This document shows positions 15,686 to 60,155 of a DNA stretch of 64,000 nucleotides, piece after piece (within the stretch, counting starts at the first letter, position 1; each line of letters starts with the position of its first letter). Source of the DNA: Aequorivita viscosa (GTDB lineage Bacteria; Bacteroidota; Bacteroidia; Flavobacteriales; Flavobacteriaceae); assembly GCF_900106795.1 (NCBI RefSeq), contig NZ_FNNS01000005.1, positions 62,001 to 126,000 of the forward strand, in the 5' to 3' direction. The translations under genes were made by a program, and so were the position numbers. The notes under the pieces were generated by a model. That model made no database searches, was not told the origin of the DNA, and was given only the letters and a program-made list of their open reading frames with translations.

Positions 15686-17145
15686 TTGTATTAAAGGACA
15701 TATTGTATAAGGTAACCCTCGAAAAGGTCGTGGGCAATACTTCTGTGGCTATACATAACATAGAATTTGATTCGCGAAAAGTTTCTTTAAACGATGTTTT
15801 TGTAGCTATAAAAGGAACTGTGTCCGATGGGCACCAATTTATTGAAAAAGCAACAAATCAGGGTGCTTTGGCAATAGTGTGCGAAACCTTGCCGGAAAAG
15901 CTCATAAACGGAATAACATATATTCAGGTGGCCGATTCGCACAAAGCATTGGCTATAATTGCGGCGAATTATTACGAAAATCCGTCACAACAGTTAAAAC
16001 TTGTTGGTGTAACCGGTACAAACGGGAAAACTACAATTGCGTCGTTGCTGTATCAGCTCTTCAAAAAGGCAGGCGCCGAAGTTGGATTGATTTCAACAGT
16101 AAAAATAATGGTGGGCGATGTTGCGCACAAAACAATGCATACTACGCCTGATTCGCTTACAATAAATAAATATCTGCGCGAGATGGTTGATGCTGGAGTG
16201 GAGTTTTGCTTTATGGAAGTGAGTTCGCACGGAATCCATCAAAAACGGACAGAAGCATTGAGTTTTGAAGGTGGAATTTTCACTAACCTCTCTCACGATC
16301 ACTTAGATTATCACAAGGATTTTGCAGAATACCGCGATGTAAAGAAGTTGTTTTTCGACAATTTACCAAAAACAGCATTTGCATTAGTAAATGTCGATGA
16401 TAAAAACGGAGCCGTGATGCTCCAAAATACCAAGGCGAGAAAATACACGTATGCGCTAAAAGCCTACGCTGATTATAAAGCGAAGGTGTTAGAAAGTCAA
16501 TTTACAGGTCAGTTGTTAAAAATCAACAATCAAGAGCTGTGGGTGAGATTGATAGGAGGTTTCAATGCGTATAACCTATTGGCAATTTATGCAACGGCAG
16601 AACTTTTGGGATTAGAAACCCTAGAAATTCTTCAAATAATGAGCGTATTGGAAAGTGTTGATGGCAGATTTCAGTATCTGGTTTCAGAAAACAAAATTAC
16701 TGTAATTGTTGATTATGCCCACACACCTGATGCTTTAGAAAACGTATTAATAACTATTAATAGTATTCGAACCGGAAATGAAGAAGTGATTACCGTAGTT
16801 GGCTGCGGCGGAGATCGCGATCCACAGAAAAGACCAATTATGGCTAAGGTTGCTGCCGCTTTAAGCACAAAAGCTGTTTTTACAAGTGATAATCCTCGAA
16901 CAGAAGATCCTGAGAAAATTATAGCTGAAATGGAAGCAGGGGTACCAGCCGAGAATTATAAAAAAACAATATCTATCACCAATCGAAAAGAAGCGATTAA
17001 AGCTGCGTGCCAAATGGCGCAAGAAGGCGATATTATTTTAATCGCTGGAAAAGGACACGAAACATATCAAGAAATTAATGGAGAACGATTTGATTTCGAT
17101 GATTTTAAAATTGTAAATGAACTGTTAACCCTCCTAAACAAATAG
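15682..17145 (+). CDS. murE: UDP-MurNAc-L-Ala-D-Glu:meso-diaminopimelate ligase MurE
   Basis: Adds the third stem-peptide residue to the peptidoglycan precursor. The protein has 487 residues, with the Mur N-terminal domain ending near residue 100, the ATP loop TGTNGKTT at 111-118, and the C-terminal domain carrying DNPR at 403-406, the signature of mDAP-specific enzymes, so the wall is mDAP type. The central VSSHGIHQKRT segment carries the conserved Lys-carbamylation region. The GTG start overlaps the ftsI stop. No murF is found in the cluster. Confidence 0.95.
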   Translation: MIVLKDILYKVTLEKVVGNTSVAIHNIEFDSRKVSLNDVFVAIKGTVSDGHQFIEKATNQGALAIVCETLPEKLINGITYIQVADSHKALAIIAANYYENPSQQLKLVGVTGTNGKTTIASLLYQLFKKAGAEVGLISTVKIMVGDVAHKTMHTTPDSLTINKYLREMVDAGVEFCFMEVSSHGIHQKRTEALSFEGGIFTNLSHDHLDYHKDFAEYRDVKKLFFDNLPKTAFALVNVDDKNGAVMLQNTKARKYTYALKAYADYKAKVLESQFTGQLLKINNQELWVRLIGGFNAYNLLAIYATAELLGLETLEILQIMSVLESVDGRFQYLVSENKITVIVDYAHTPDALENVLITINSIRTGNEEVITVVGCGGDRDPQKRPIMAKVAAALSTKAVFTSDNPRTEDPEKIIAEMEAGVPAENYKKTISITNRKEAIKAACQMAQEGDIILIAGKGHETYQEINGERFDFDDFKIVNELLTLLNK

Positions 17146-17148
17146 CAA

Positions 17149-18381
17149 ATGCTGTACTACCTATTCAACTATTTGGATAAAACCTACGACTTGCCAGGAA
17201 CAGGACTGTTTGAGTTCATTACGTTCCGTGCTTCGTTGGCTGTTATCCTTTCTTTGTTTATTGCAACAGTTTATGGTAAAAAAATCATTGATTTTCTACG
17301 TAAAAAACAAATTGGCGAATCAGTTCGCGATCTAGGGCTTGAAGGTCAAAATGAAAAAGCGGGAACGCCAACAATGGGTGGGATAATTATAATTCTTGCT
17401 ACACTTGTTCCAGTGCTTCTTTTTGCTAAACTGGAAAATATTTATGTAATCCTGCTCATCGTTACCACTCTTTGGATGGGAGTAATTGGCTTTATAGACG
17501 ATTACATCAAAAAGTTTAAAAATGATAAGGAAGGTCTTCCTGGAAAGTTTAAAGTAATTGGTCAAATAGGTCTTGGGTTGTTTGTAGGCATTACAATGTA
17601 TGTCCATCCAGATATCGTGGTGCAGCGAACTATTGAAAATCCAGATGCTCAGACCGAGGTTATAACCCAACAGTCCGAAACATCATTCTATGTCAAGGAT
17701 AAGGCGATGTTAACAACCATCCCTTTTGTGAAAGAAAATGAATTTGATTATTCCGAACTCCTTAGTTGGATGGGCGGAAACTATAAAAGCTACGTGTGGA
17801 TTATTTTCATACCAATTGTAATTTTCATTATTACAGCTGTTTCAAACGGAGCAAACCTAACTGATGGAATTGATGGGTTGGCCGCTGGAACTTCGGCAAT
17901 TATCGCAGCTACACTCGCTCTGTTTGCGTGGGTTTCAGGAAACTTCATTTTCTCAGACTACTTAAACATAATGTTTATCCCAAATACGGGCGAAATGACC
18001 ATTTTCATAACTGCTTTCGTTGGTGCATTGATTGGATTTTTGTGGTATAATACCTATCCAGCACAAGTGTTTATGGGAGATACAGGTAGCTTAACTATCG
18101 GTGGGATCATTGCTGTAATTGCAATTGCTGTAAGAAAGGAATTATTAATTCCTATTCTATGCGGAATTTTTTTAATGGAAAACCTCTCGGTAGTATTGCA
18201 AGTGAGTTGGTTTAAATATACACGAAAGAAATTTGGAGAAGGAAGACGGATTTTCAGGATGTCGCCCCTACATCATCACTATCAAATTAAAGGTTTTCAC
18301 GAAAGTAAAATCGTTACCCGATTTTGGATTGTAGGAATTTTCTTGGCAATTATTACGATTGTAACACTGAAAATCAGATAG
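17149..18381 (+). CDS. mraY: Phospho-MurNAc-pentapeptide translocase MraY
   Basis: Transfers phospho-MurNAc-pentapeptide to undecaprenyl phosphate, giving lipid I. It is a 410-residue multi-pass membrane protein. The conserved GTPTMGG and FIDDYIK, the [12 protein letters not shown] loop and the late [10 protein letters not shown] are all present. It is longer than E. coli MraY (360) because of an insert at ~145-210, as in other Bacteroidota. It starts 3 bases after the murE stop. Just past its end the cluster is interrupted by the four-helix-bundle cassette. Confidence 0.95.
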
Positions 18382-18386
18382 CAAAT

Positions 18387-18824
18387 GATTTACGATATAC
18401 GATTTCGGATTTAAGATTATGAAGGAAGCGATTAAAAAAAGAATGTTACGATTTGCAGTTGATACAGGAAAGCTGTGTATGAGATTTCCCATATCAAGAG
18501 AATATAATGCCTATTGCTACCAACTAATACGATGTTCAAGTTCAGTAGGTGCAAATTACAGAGCAGCGTGTAGAGGAAAGTCCGATAAAGATTTTATAAA
18601 TAAATTAAAAATCGTGGAAGAGGAAGCAGATGAAAGTATGTATTTCTTAGAAATTTTAAAAGAAATAACTGACTCACATCACAATGAAATTGACAGATTG
18701 CACAAAGAAGCCAACGAACTGTTGTCAATTACTGTTGCTTCTATAAATACGGTGCGTAAAAGGATAAATTTAAAATGAGTTCCAATCGCAAATCGTCAAT
18801 CGTAAATCGTCAATCGAAAATCGT
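18387..18824. mobile_element. Inverted-repeat-flanked cassette carrying a four-helix-bundle gene
   Basis: The left flank 18387-18413 contains GATTTACGATATACGATTTC; the right flank 18784-18824 carries the inverted form, AATCGTCAATCGTAAATCG plus further ATCG units. Between them is the four-helix-bundle gene. The cassette separates mraY and murD, which are normally adjacent, and its right flank is translated as the start of murD. The same repeat family occurs without a gene at 58241-58300 and 60015-60083. Insertion is inferred; no transposase or target duplication is seen. Confidence 0.55.
18419..18778 (+). CDS. Four helix bundle protein (23S rRNA intervening-sequence protein family)
   Basis: A 119-residue helical protein of the family first found inside intervening sequences of 23S rRNA genes (Leptospira, Coxiella), now known as scattered chromosomal genes in Bacteroidota. 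The family core is visible: YCYQLIRCSSSVGANYRAAC followed by GKSDKDFINKLKIVEEEADE and YFLEILKE, and a final helix rich in Lys/Arg. The family is related in fold to the accessory protein Avd of diversity-generating retroelements; a nucleic-acid-binding role is plausible but unproven. It lies between inverted repeats inside the dcw cluster, and its stop overlaps the murD start (ATGA). Confidence 0.88.
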   Translation: MKEAIKKRMLRFAVDTGKLCMRFPISREYNAYCYQLIRCSSSVGANYRAACRGKSDKDFINKLKIVEEEADESMYFLEILKEITDSHHNEIDRLHKEANELLSITVASINTVRKRINLK

Positions 18825-20145
18825 TATTCTCGGTGGAGGTGAAAGTGGAGTAGGTACAGCCATATTGGCGAAACAAACGGGGTTTGAGGTGTTTGTGTCA
18901 GACTTCGGGAAAATAAAAGAAAAGTACAAACAAGTTCTTATAAATAATGAGATTGAATGGGAAGAAGAAGGTCATTCTGAAGAAAACATACTGCTAGCAG
19001 ATGTTGTGATGAAAAGCCCAGGAATTCCAGATAAGGCGCCAATAGTTCAAAAGTTGCTCGAAAAAGGTGTAAAAGTGATTTCCGAAATTGAATTTGCTGC
19101 AAAATATACCGATGCGACAATTGTGGGCATTACGGGTAGCAATGGAAAAACAACTACAGCGAGTTTGGTGTATGAAATTCTTAAAAACGGCGAGTTAAAC
19201 GTGGCTTTAGGTGGAAATATAGGAAAGAGTTTTGCTGAACAAGTGTCAGAATTACGATATGAAAACTTCGTGTTAGAGTTGAGCAGTTTTCAACTTGACG
19301 GAATTGAAAGTTTCGCACCACATATTGCGATTTTAACAAATTTGAGTCCAGATCATTTGGATAGATACGATTATAAATATGAAAATTATATCGCTTCAAA
19401 GTTCCGAATAGCAATGAATCAAACATCTCAAGATTACTTTATTTATGATGCAGATGATGTTGAAATAGACAAATGGCTTTCAAAAAACACCATAAAATCA
19501 CGCTTGCTTCCTTTCTCAATTAAAAAAGAATTGAGTCAAGGAGCTTTCAAAAAAAATAATGAAATAGTAATAAATATAGATAATAATAAATTTAATATGC
19601 CAATATCAGAAATAGCAATGCAGGGGGAACATAATGTGAAAAACGCAATGGCAGCCACAACGGTAGCTACCCTGTTGAAAATTAGAAAAGAAACAATTCG
19701 TCGTAGTCTTGAAGGATTTTCCGGGGTAGAGCATAGGTTGGAAAAAGTGCTGAAAATCAACAATGTGCTTTATATTAATGATTCTAAAGCAACAAATGTA
19801 AATGCAACGTTTTACGCTTTAGACAGTATGGAAAATCCTGCCATTTGGATTGTAGGTGGTGTTGATAAGGGTAATAATTACAGCGAACTTTTGCCGCTTG
19901 TAAATGAAAAAGTAAAGGCTATAATATGTTTAGGTGTCGATAATAAAAAAATTATCGAAGCATTTGGGAATATTGTTGATACCATTATGGAAACTACCTC
20001 TATGGAAGTAGCGGTTCGTACGGCGTATAAACTTGCGGAGCGAAATAACACTGTACTGCTCTCACCTGCTTGTGCTAGTTTTGATTTATTTGAAAATTAC
20101 GAAGATCGAGGAAGACAGTTTAAAAATGCTGTAAGAAACCTCTAA
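18775..20145 (+). CDS. murD: UDP-MurNAc-L-Ala:D-Glu ligase MurD with repeat-derived N-terminus
   Basis: Adds D-Glu to UDP-MurNAc-L-Ala. The protein has 456 residues. The usual family start is roughly (M)KIVILGGGESGVG; here KIVILGGG begins only at residue 15, preceded by MSSNRKSSIVNRQS, which is encoded by the AATCGTAAATC repeat at 18784-18824. The ATP loop TGSNGKTTT is at ~118-126, and the late NDSKATN motif and SPACASFDLFENYEDRG signature are intact. The ATG overlaps the stop of the four-helix-bundle gene, so translation is now coupled to it. GTT/ATC codons give no ATG at the ancestral position, making the upstream start the only reasonable one. Confidence 0.93.
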   Translation: MSSNRKSSIVNRQSKIVILGGGESGVGTAILAKQTGFEVFVSDFGKIKEKYKQVLINNEIEWEEEGHSEENILLADVVMKSPGIPDKAPIVQKLLEKGVKVISEIEFAAKYTDATIVGITGSNGKTTTASLVYEILKNGELNVALGGNIGKSFAEQVSELRYENFVLELSSFQLDGIESFAPHIAILTNLSPDHLDRYDYKYENYIASKFRIAMNQTSQDYFIYDADDVEIDKWLSKNTIKSRLLPFSIKKELSQGAFKKNNEIVINIDNNKFNMPISEIAMQGEHNVKNAMAATTVATLLKIRKETIRRSLEGFSGVEHRLEKVLKINNVLYINDSKATNVNATFYALDSMENPAIWIVGGVDKGNNYSELLPLVNEKVKAIICLGVDNKKIIEAFGNIVDTIMETTSMEVAVRTAYKLAERNNTVLLSPACASFDLFENYEDRGRQFKNAVRNL

Positions 20146-20175
20146 AAATATATAAAGCAATAGCGAACTGAAATC

Positions 20176-21366
20176 GTGAAAAACATTTTTCAATACATAC
20201 AAGGAGATAGAACAATCTGGGGGCTCGTCACTTTTTTGGCGTTGATTTCATTTGTCCCTGTATATAGTGCCAGTAGTAATTTGGCGTATTTATACGGTGA
20301 TGGGAGTACCTTGCCTTATTTATTGAAACATTTTGCGCACTTAGTCTTAGGTTTTGGAATTTTATACGGAGTTCATAAAATTCCGTATAACTACTTTCGA
20401 GGTCTGTCTATTATTGCGTTGCCAGTTGTAGGAATTCTCTTAATTATAACAATGGCAGAAGGTACAACAATCGGTGGAGCCAATGCGAGTCGTTGGATTC
20501 GCTTGCCTTTTGTAGGAATAACCATTCAGACTTCTACACTGGCAGGAGTAGCTTTGATGACTTATGTGGCGCGTTATCTGTCAAAAATAAAAGATAAAAC
20601 CGTAACTTTTAAAGAAACTATTTTACCGCTTTGGGCACCTGTTTTTATTATTCTGTCATTCATTCTACCAGCAAATCTTTCAACAGCTGCAATATTCTTT
20701 ACAATGGTTGTAATGTTGATGTTTATTGGTGGTTACCCGCTAAAATATTTAGGCGTTATATTAGGGGCAGGACTTGTTTTTCTAACGCTCTTCATTTTAA
20801 CGGCCAAAGCATTTCCGGGTACGTTCCCGAATCGTGTTGATACGTGGATAAGTAGAATCGATAATTTTACAGATAATAAGGATACAGATGCAGATTATCA
20901 AATAGAAAAAGCAAAAATAGCAATAGCTACAGGGGGAATTGCTGGCTTAGGGCCAGGAAAAAGTGTTCAGAAAAATTTCTTGCCACAATCATCTTCCGAT
21001 TTTATCTATGCCATAATTGTTGAAGAATTTGGACTTGTAGGAGGTTTGTCTTTAATGTTGGTTTACCTGTTACTGCTTTTCAGAATATTGGTCGTAGCTC
21101 ATAAATCATCATCAATTTTTGGTAAGCTATTGGTTATAGGTGTAGGTATTCCCATAATATTCCGAGCAATGATTAATATGGCCGTGGCAGTAGAACTTTT
21201 TCCCGTTACGGGACAAAACCTGCCACTCATAAGTAGTGGAGGGACATCTATTTGGATGACGTGTTTAGCTTTGGGAATGATATTGAGTGTAAGCGCCAAA
21301 CGAGAAATAGCACCAAAAGAAGAAGCAGAGGAAAACCCGTTAGATATTTTAAGCGAAGCAATGTAA
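20176..21366 (+). CDS. ftsW: Lipid II glycosyltransferase FtsW (SEDS family)
   Basis: Septal peptidoglycan polymerase working with FtsI. It has 396 residues and about ten membrane segments. The GTG start gives MKNIFQYIQGDRTIWGLVTF. The family segments GGANASRWIRLP, the loop ending GPGKSVQKNFLPQSSSDFIYA, and PVTGQNLPLISSGGTS are all intact. The position between murD and murG in the dcw cluster indicates FtsW rather than the elongation homologue RodA. Confidence 0.93.
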   Translation: MKNIFQYIQGDRTIWGLVTFLALISFVPVYSASSNLAYLYGDGSTLPYLLKHFAHLVLGFGILYGVHKIPYNYFRGLSIIALPVVGILLIITMAEGTTIGGANASRWIRLPFVGITIQTSTLAGVALMTYVARYLSKIKDKTVTFKETILPLWAPVFIILSFILPANLSTAAIFFTMVVMLMFIGGYPLKYLGVILGAGLVFLTLFILTAKAFPGTFPNRVDTWISRIDNFTDNKDTDADYQIEKAKIAIATGGIAGLGPGKSVQKNFLPQSSSDFIYAIIVEEFGLVGGLSLMLVYLLLLFRILVVAHKSSSIFGKLLVIGVGIPIIFRAMINMAVAVELFPVTGQNLPLISSGGTSIWMTCLALGMILSVSAKREIAPKEEAEENPLDILSEAM

Positions 21367-58236: not shown

Positions 58237-58240
58237 CCAA

Positions 58241-58300
58241 GTACGATTTTTAGATGTACGATTTAAGATTGCAAAATCTAAAATCGTACATCGTAAATCA
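58241..58300. repeat. AATCGTACATCG palindrome between rpsK and rpsD
   Basis: Left arm TACGATTTTTAGATGTACGATTTAAGATT and its inverted right arm AATCTAAAATCGTACATCGTAAATC, centred on GCAA near 58273. It shares the GATTTACGAT / ATCGTAAATC core with the flanks of the dcw cassette. Further on, ACCTTAATTTAG and ACCTTAAATTAG (58356 and 58380) form a short direct repeat before rpsD. Confidence 0.65.
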
Positions 58301-58394
58301 AAAATTTATTAATAAGTATCAACTGAAGATCTATAAAAACTAGAGGATAGCATAAGACCTTAATTTAGTTTCTCTTCAAAACCTTAAATTAGAA

Positions 58395-60014: not shown

Positions 60015-60083
60015 AGGATTTTAGATTTTGGATTTACGATTTTAAATTTCTGAAATCGTAAATCTGAAATCGTAATTCTGAAA
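60015..60083. repeat. GATTTACGATTTT palindrome between rpoA and rplQ
   Basis: GGATTTACGATTTT on the left is mirrored by AAATCGTAAATCTGAAATCG on the right, around TAAATTTCTG. It starts directly after the rpoA stop. Same repeat family as at 58241-58300 and the dcw cassette flanks. Confidence 0.65.
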
Positions 60084-60155
60084 TTAATTTAACCCATCAT
60101 ATTTTGCTCTCGGCCGCAGCCGATTTGGTAGCAAGATGATGAAATCAAAAATGTC

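Follow-up and report, generated by a model that had tools for sequence, protein, structure and literature searches.

Between mraY and murD in the genome of Aequorivita viscosa lies a short insertion, in which one gene of the IVP (S23p, four-helix-bundle) family is framed by two inverted arrays of tandem heptads. Comparison with related and distant genomes shows that such a gene and its arrays form one insertable unit that moves as a whole, and that what recurs is a pair of tandem arrays, of period 7 or at times 8, which face each other in inverted sense across the IVP gene and are built from a repeat unit specific to each locus. Taken as a whole, the best explanation, to which we give about an even chance of being right, is a compact mobile element in which the IVP protein attaches to the paired arrays of the mRNA that encodes it, renders the insertion tolerable, and probably aids movement.

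The window, a stretch of 64,000 nucleotides, holds this cassette on its plus strand. The upstream neighbour is mraY (17149..18381, +; TIGR00445, 314.9 bits), whose stop codon (18379-18381, +) is the left edge of the insertion by comparison with empty sites. Five bases separate this stop codon from the 5' array (18387..18418; Tandem Repeats Finder, period 7, 4.6 copies), which is followed by the IVP gene (18419..18778, +) and by the 3' array (18784..18824; Tandem Repeats Finder, period 7, 5.9 copies), the inverse of the 5' array. The stop codon of the IVP gene overlaps the start codon of the downstream murD (18775..20145, +; TIGR01087, 417.9 bits) as ATGA, and the first MurD residues are encoded by the 3' array, read in frame, with the TIGR01087 match running from residue 15. 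Judged by eye from start codons, MurD in the window starts within the 3' array (18775-18822), with about 14 extra array-encoded residues relative to empty-site genomes, in which the murD frame opens at a GTG right behind mraY.

The IVP protein scores above cut-off for both PF05635 (23S_rRNA_IVP; 54.8 bits versus 33.8) and TIGR02436 (four helix bundle protein; 78.7 bits versus 24), which, together with the TIGR matches of its neighbours and the period-7 arrays, bears out the earlier note's description of a 119-residue IVP-family gene between mraY and murD with inverted flanking repeats. No other Pfam family matches the protein at E 0.001, and as this is the sole frame of the cassette, no transposase is encoded. 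A sequence search for solved structures at E 0.01 gave a single relative, PDB 2rld (E 3.7e-11), an entry with five chains. Residue 49 (18563-18565) is Ala, whereas among 17 aligned members of the family at least 90% have Glu there (NIAEG motif). Rfam gave 0 matches within window positions 17000-21000, and the cassette lies outside a 23S rRNA gene, unlike an intervening sequence.

Rather than a single fixed palindrome, the motif seen in the window is an array of degenerate heptads. A 17-base two-unit pattern, allowing at most 1 mismatch, has 13 matches in the genome, 3 of them inside the window cassette, and its reversed control has 0. Inverted arrays of the same unit do occur twice without a gene in the ribosomal operon, as had been claimed, at rpsK-rpsD (about 58237..58310) and at rpoA-rplQ (about 60015..60083). 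Folded as RNA, these hairpins reach z -8.6 (58237-58312) and z -7.1 (60015-60085), and 0 of 200 shuffles were equally stable. PF05635 has 10 matches in the genome, 9 of them above cut-off. Neither ATCGTAAATC nor its complement was found at the other nine IVP loci, several of which are framed by inverted period-7 arrays of other units such as GTTGGAA, CAACCGA, and ATTCGTA; a fixed AATCGTAAATC palindrome as the IVP signal is thereby ruled out. The same genome has more AATCGTA-type arrays without an IVP gene (L360, L365-L368, L371, and L372); L372 is a hairpin between same-strand genes, and the rest either stand singly or are interspersed with heptads of other kinds. Gene-less hairpins are best explained as shorter relatives of the element. 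Their orientation, as a measure of insertion bias, was compared across the window and 400 kb of further sequence, which together gave only nine candidates, 5 of them in 258 same-strand gaps, 3 in 48 convergent gaps, and 1 in 50 divergent gaps; some are probably terminators.

The association of IVP genes with arrays was measured on 92 IVP genes out of 129 distinct matches, all full length and with 150-base flanks free of N. Overall, 118 IVP loci were used (L001-L038 and L069-L148), the weakest and partial places being left out, and as they include orthologous sites, or one site in several genomes, not all are independent. For each period, the score was the self-identity of the best 28-base window within 150 bases on each side, with a threshold of 18/28 on both sides, and 305 genes in a 400-kb sample of two same-genus genomes served as controls. 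Period 7 was found on both sides of 49/92 IVP genes versus 7/305 controls and period 8 around 7/92 versus 2/305; periods 4-6 and 9-13 gave 0 or 1 each of 92, and the multiples 14 and 15 gave 24 and 3. The controls include two IVP genes, one of them period-7 positive, and two other positive controls adjoin these genes; with the IVP genes removed, the period-7 comparison is 49/92 versus 6/303 (Fisher P 3.6e-30).

The two arms of a locus also match each other. The upstream flank aligned to the reverse complement of its own downstream flank with a local score of at least 20 in 51/92 cases, as against 16/920 with arms of other loci and 4/303 in controls, while a direct rather than inverted match of equal score was seen in 14/92, mostly at long or clustered arrays. 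A combined rule assigns 59 of the 92 genes to period 7 and 9 to period 8; the 24 genes that lack a clear array count against the best explanation. Repeats and four-helix-bundle genes are thus associated by both the period and the inverted-match statistics, and of the earlier proposal that IVP genes go with palindromes, the part that stands is an association with period-7 or period-8 arrays of any unit, the part that falls being the AATCGTAAATC palindromes.

Such arrays might instead be ordinary slippage repeats of intercistronic gaps, among which IVP genes sit by chance, and heptad-type arrays are indeed found without an IVP gene (25 of period 7, 5 of period 8, and 15 of period 6 in the 400 kb of the two same-genus genomes). 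This reading is strongly disfavoured by arms that match inversely within a locus and not between loci. As control genes rarely have such arrays, and as the arrays travel with the gene and the pairing spans phyla, as set out below, we consider it very improbable that gene and array have no functional link.

A period fixed by protein clade was also considered, and the tendency is only mild. On the protein tree, period 8 needs 7 changes (shuffled mean 8.7, 9/500 as low) and period 7 needs 21 (shuffled mean 27.2, 6/500 as low). The 24-row clade that holds the window IVP has 16 loci of period 7, 8 unclear, and 0 of period 8.

The family and its arrays are widely distributed. IVP genes occur in 16/20 genomes of the nearest relatives, the A. 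viscosa genome included, with 5-15 matches in each of 11 other same-genus genomes, and in 157/198 genomes sampled from the phylum of the window. In this phylum sample, with 30 of 33 matches used, 6/30 loci have period 7 on both sides and 4/30 period 8, the other tested periods giving 0, and inverted arm matches were found in 10/30 versus 6/300 permuted pairs. Loci on cyanobacterial plasmids have period 7 on both sides in 5/14 cases and on at least one side in 12/14, and period 8 on both sides in 1/14. A sample of many phyla comprised 76 usable loci of 80 matches listed out of 592 confirmed candidates, one archaeal bin being dropped, with loci from Proteobacteria, Planctomycetes, Acidobacteria, Chloroflexi, Clostridia, Patescibacteria, Bacteroidota, and others. 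Among these matches listed, period 7 was present on both sides in 25/76 and on at least one side in 51/76, period 8 on both sides in 4/76, period 9 in 1/76, and other tested periods in 0, and the arms matched inversely in 34/76 versus 8/760. In 14 of these loci no Rfam family matched, and therefore no rRNA is found there.

Within the genus, individual sites are filled in some genomes and empty in others. The mraY-murD junction was readable in 27 of 28 same-genus genomes (in G009 a contig end cuts it): 15 are empty, with murD within a few bases of the mraY stop codon, 5 are filled, one of them (G002) with an internal deletion, and 7 have other short inserts. These empty sites support the suggestion that the cassette is an insertion splitting the dcw cluster, and the gene is not shared by all close relatives at a repeat-free site. 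The filled state requires at least 3 changes on the mraY tree, with empty close relatives present, which fits clean loss or regain alike. At ffh-folD, an IVP gene or its remains, some broken, are found in 15/28 same-genus genomes, and none is found in 13. Two ffh-folD loci (L226 and L242) have an upstream array of period 6 (CAGTCT, many copies), whereas their relatives have period 7.

The rpoA-rplQ gap was compared by eye in 26 of the 28 genomes, G007 and G030 being left out for want of an rpsD match: 7 are empty, 12 have an ATTTACG-type hairpin, 6 have a TGAGATT-type hairpin at the same place, and 1 has another. Two unrelated heptad families at one place (window 60015-60083; L199-L224) may reflect independent insertions or whole turnover of both arms. 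When 16 of the 19 hairpins were aligned, one of them shortened, the covariation score on the window stem was 0.230 versus 0.155 for shuffled alignments, with 0/500 as high, and 80% of cells were paired versus at most 46% when the stem was slid; homogenisation of the repeats could yield the same covariation.

Movement is seen in copies at unrelated sites. Among 143 IVP genes, the two members of each of the 8 pairs more than 95% alike share their site, and 5 pairs at 80-95% and 17 at 65-80% identity sit at different sites. Three cyanobacterial plasmid copies (L255, L258, and L262) mark the ends of the unit, as their DNA homology runs only from array outer end to array outer end (416-419 bases, 78-82% identical), with unrelated flanks. 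Array similarity between different-site copies falls with protein identity, from 34.6 (80-95%) to 20.8 (65-80%) and 13.8 (50-65%), more distant pairs giving 12.7-13.0, and therefore the arrays move together with the gene and diverge rapidly afterwards. The site of L258 is empty on six sibling plasmids, two of which were read (L267 and L268, with flanks 97.6-99.3% identical to those of L258). When empty it reads AAAAAGTAATTAACAAATAA; when filled it has GTAAT at both ends, a clean 5-bp duplication. At the very same place, plasmid L273 has a gene-less hairpin and plasmid L269 a copy without its 3' part. The mobile unit postulated in the earlier note is therefore upheld insofar as gene and repeats move together, between unrelated sites and relative to empty siblings; its repeats are heptad arrays and not a single palindrome.

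Target duplication was considered as a rule and gave one clean case among the plasmid sites read and none at mraY-murD, which counts against the best explanation. The L262 insertion and a second site in L271 lie where neighbouring genes are a few bases apart or overlap at their stop and start codons, both of which are left intact, with imperfect duplications; L255 and L256 have no clear duplication, the L253 junction is blurred by divergence, and the left flank of L259 differs. A Y1 transposase or reverse transcriptase required in trans is not supported by the distribution of Y1_Tnp and RVT_1, the sole two families searched: across 20 genomes, Y1_Tnp (PF01797) is absent from 7 that bear IVP genes, two of these 7 being less than 90% complete, and RVT_1 has matches in 5/20 and none in the A. 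viscosa genome. That neither family supplies a candidate enzyme also weighs against the best explanation.

These data bear on a second reading, in which the arrays are terminal repeats of a DNA-level element for a trans-acting transposase, while the IVP gene, as an accessory or a passenger, would have no binding role at them. The inverted ends, the gene-less relative at the site of L258, and the one clean direct repeat are what such an element would show. Against this, the element contains no gene but the IVP gene, whose pairing with such arrays extends across phyla, the two families searched yield no shared enzyme, and array units vary widely, unlike ends read by one transposase, all of which leads us to regard this reading as improbable.

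The element is placed in a characteristic way. In the phylum of the window, both neighbours are in the direction of the IVP gene in 117/120 determined cases (122 genes), as compared with 141/266 controls, and partial or decayed copies show this in 20/23. Relative to the upstream stop codon, the 5' array begins at a median distance of 0.5 nt, with quartiles of -4 and 6. An upstream stop was present for 122 of 129 genes, 96 of these with a scorable array, and 72 of the arrays start within -5 to +20. This sense bias and the start at the stop codon could reflect targeting or the survival of harmless insertions. As a universal rule the sense bias is not supported outside this phylum, with 44/70 many-phyla loci (among the matches listed) and 10/14 cyanobacterial plasmid loci having both neighbours in the IVP direction, and this weaker bias counts against the best explanation. 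These counts rest on neighbours called as longest ORFs, which performs badly at high GC content because of long antisense frames.

The window IVP protein is under purifying selection. Four intact mraY-murD IVP proteins differ by dN 0.06-0.12, and dN/dS is 0.02-0.07 in the 5/6 pairs with computable dS, with synonymous sites near saturation; mraY itself has dN/dS 0.02-0.03 in 3/6 pairs. From the low ratio at near-saturated synonymous sites, it follows that the window copy is old and its protein matters. Constraint is weaker on the ten fuller IVP copies at ffh-folD, with a median pN/pS of 0.305. A purely selfish gene would not be expected to show strong selection on a copy that has long occupied one site, and this counts against the best explanation.

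Such constraint is an argument for a domesticated operon regulator, an old and vertically kept host gene whose product would bind the arrays for feedback or downstream control and whose movement is rare and incidental. Protein clades specific to one site and the presence of IVP genes, some broken, at ffh-folD in many genomes of the genus also agree with such a regulator. On the other hand, mraY-murD is empty in close relatives and changes state at least three times on the mraY tree, near-identical copies occupy unrelated sites, and several copies are broken. Weighing these together, we think a domesticated regulator unlikely, and retain the mobile element with an array-binding IVP protein as the preferred reading.

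In this preferred reading, an element of about 0.4 kb, made of a 5' heptad array, one IVP gene, and an inverted 3' heptad array, would insert between genes as a unit, in the phylum of the window nearly always in the sense orientation between same-strand genes and from the upstream stop codon. An insertion so placed would let both neighbours survive, and the IVP gene would be cotranscribed. The arrays could pair in mRNA, which would place the IVP frame in a hairpin loop, the plan of a 23S rRNA intervening sequence. For the window cassette as RNA, the arms pair in the predicted fold, but the whole fold barely exceeds shuffles in stability (z -1.9, with 5/100 shuffles as stable), which counts against this reading; the gene-less hairpins are far more stable. 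We infer that the arrays pair in the cell. The IVP protein, which is presumably pentameric as its solved relatives are, would most likely bind these paired arrays in its own transcript and so permit expression of the downstream gene. If so, the insertion would be tolerable and thereby hard to lose, and the protein probably also helps the element move. If it does mobilise or tame the element, the protein would serve mobility or addiction while having no known catalytic domain.

A broader reading is offered tentatively, and we lean against it. IVP genes may be the missing protein partner of bacterial heptanucleotide repeats, in a cross-phylum mobile element that inserts at operon stop/start junctions and whose sole gene encodes a non-enzymatic pentameric helix bundle reading repeat period and pairing, not sequence; rRNA intervening sequences, and perhaps the Avd subunit of diversity-generating retroelements, would be derived from it.

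REP/RAYT systems combine dispersed palindromic repeats with a gene framed by inverted copies, the gene being a Y1 (HUH) transposase. The likeness to the window cassette lies in the dispersed palindromic repeats and the gene within inverted copies; the window gene, however, encodes a helix bundle and not Y1_Tnp, a family missing from 7 IVP-bearing genomes, and the heptads are of many units. The period-7 tandem repeats in the intergenic DNA of the window are of the heptanucleotide (STRR-like) kind, and the cyanobacterial STRRs are further heptanucleotide tandem repeats. Other examples are GGGAATC of Xanthomonas and GGGGA(T/C)T of Nostoc (PMC4692102) and TAACTGA heptads in Beggiatoaceae, cyanobacteria, and Bacteroidetes (PMC4679880). 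The known repeats resemble the arrays described here in being intergenic and of period 7, often in inverted pairs in Xanthomonas and in ribosomal protein operons in Beggiatoaceae, but a linked gene or mobile element was generally not found (PMC4692102), whereas here an IVP gene lies between the arms. For its heptads PMC4679880 suggests only an unknown repeat-binding protein, and both papers note the overrepresentation of heptameric repeats in bacteria without an explained origin (PMC4692102, PMC4679880).

A close parallel is the intervening sequence in the 23S rRNA of Coxiella, for which the literature describes an S23p frame with tandem heptamers (GACAGAT) upstream of it and, citing earlier work, already proposes mobility served by the frame, S23p/IVP proteins being described there as without known function (PMC4990558). 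In that account, as in the window, one S23p/IVP gene lies between inverted repeats able to close a stem, in about 0.43 kb, with heptamers before the frame (PMC4990558). The differences are that the window cassette sits in a protein-coding operon and not in rRNA, that its heptads form both arms, and that purifying selection acts on its protein; the Coxiella frame, by contrast, is considered in that paper to be unexpressed (PMC4990558). PF05635 is said to resemble Avd of diversity-generating retroelements, and Avd and the window IVP belong to one protein superfamily (PMC10053308). The A. viscosa genome has no RVT_1 match. No paper linking IVP genes with heptad arrays was found in the open-licence literature, and the words S23 and intervening are absent from the text of Rehm et al., as are S23, four-helix and intervening sequence from that of a second paper. 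The present data tie heptameric repeats and S23p/IVP proteins together across phyla. With a concrete unit, sites with and without the insertion, and an intact protein under selection, both the origin of the repeats and the function of IVP proteins become testable.

Several loci have further features. One same-genus genome has four PF05635 matches in 4.5 kb (G011:C11:116371-120859), possibly through repeated insertion at one place. In Ramlibacter and Xanthomonas, an IVP gene lies right upstream of carB, encoding the large subunit of carbamoyl-phosphate synthase; carB was confirmed at L279 and L284, and L287 and L303 resemble this layout by eye. This is either a recurrent site or one old insertion. 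On cyanobacterial plasmids, as annotated, the IVP gene lies between cas6 and cas4 at L257 and L259 and between cas10 and a cmr3-type gene at L261.
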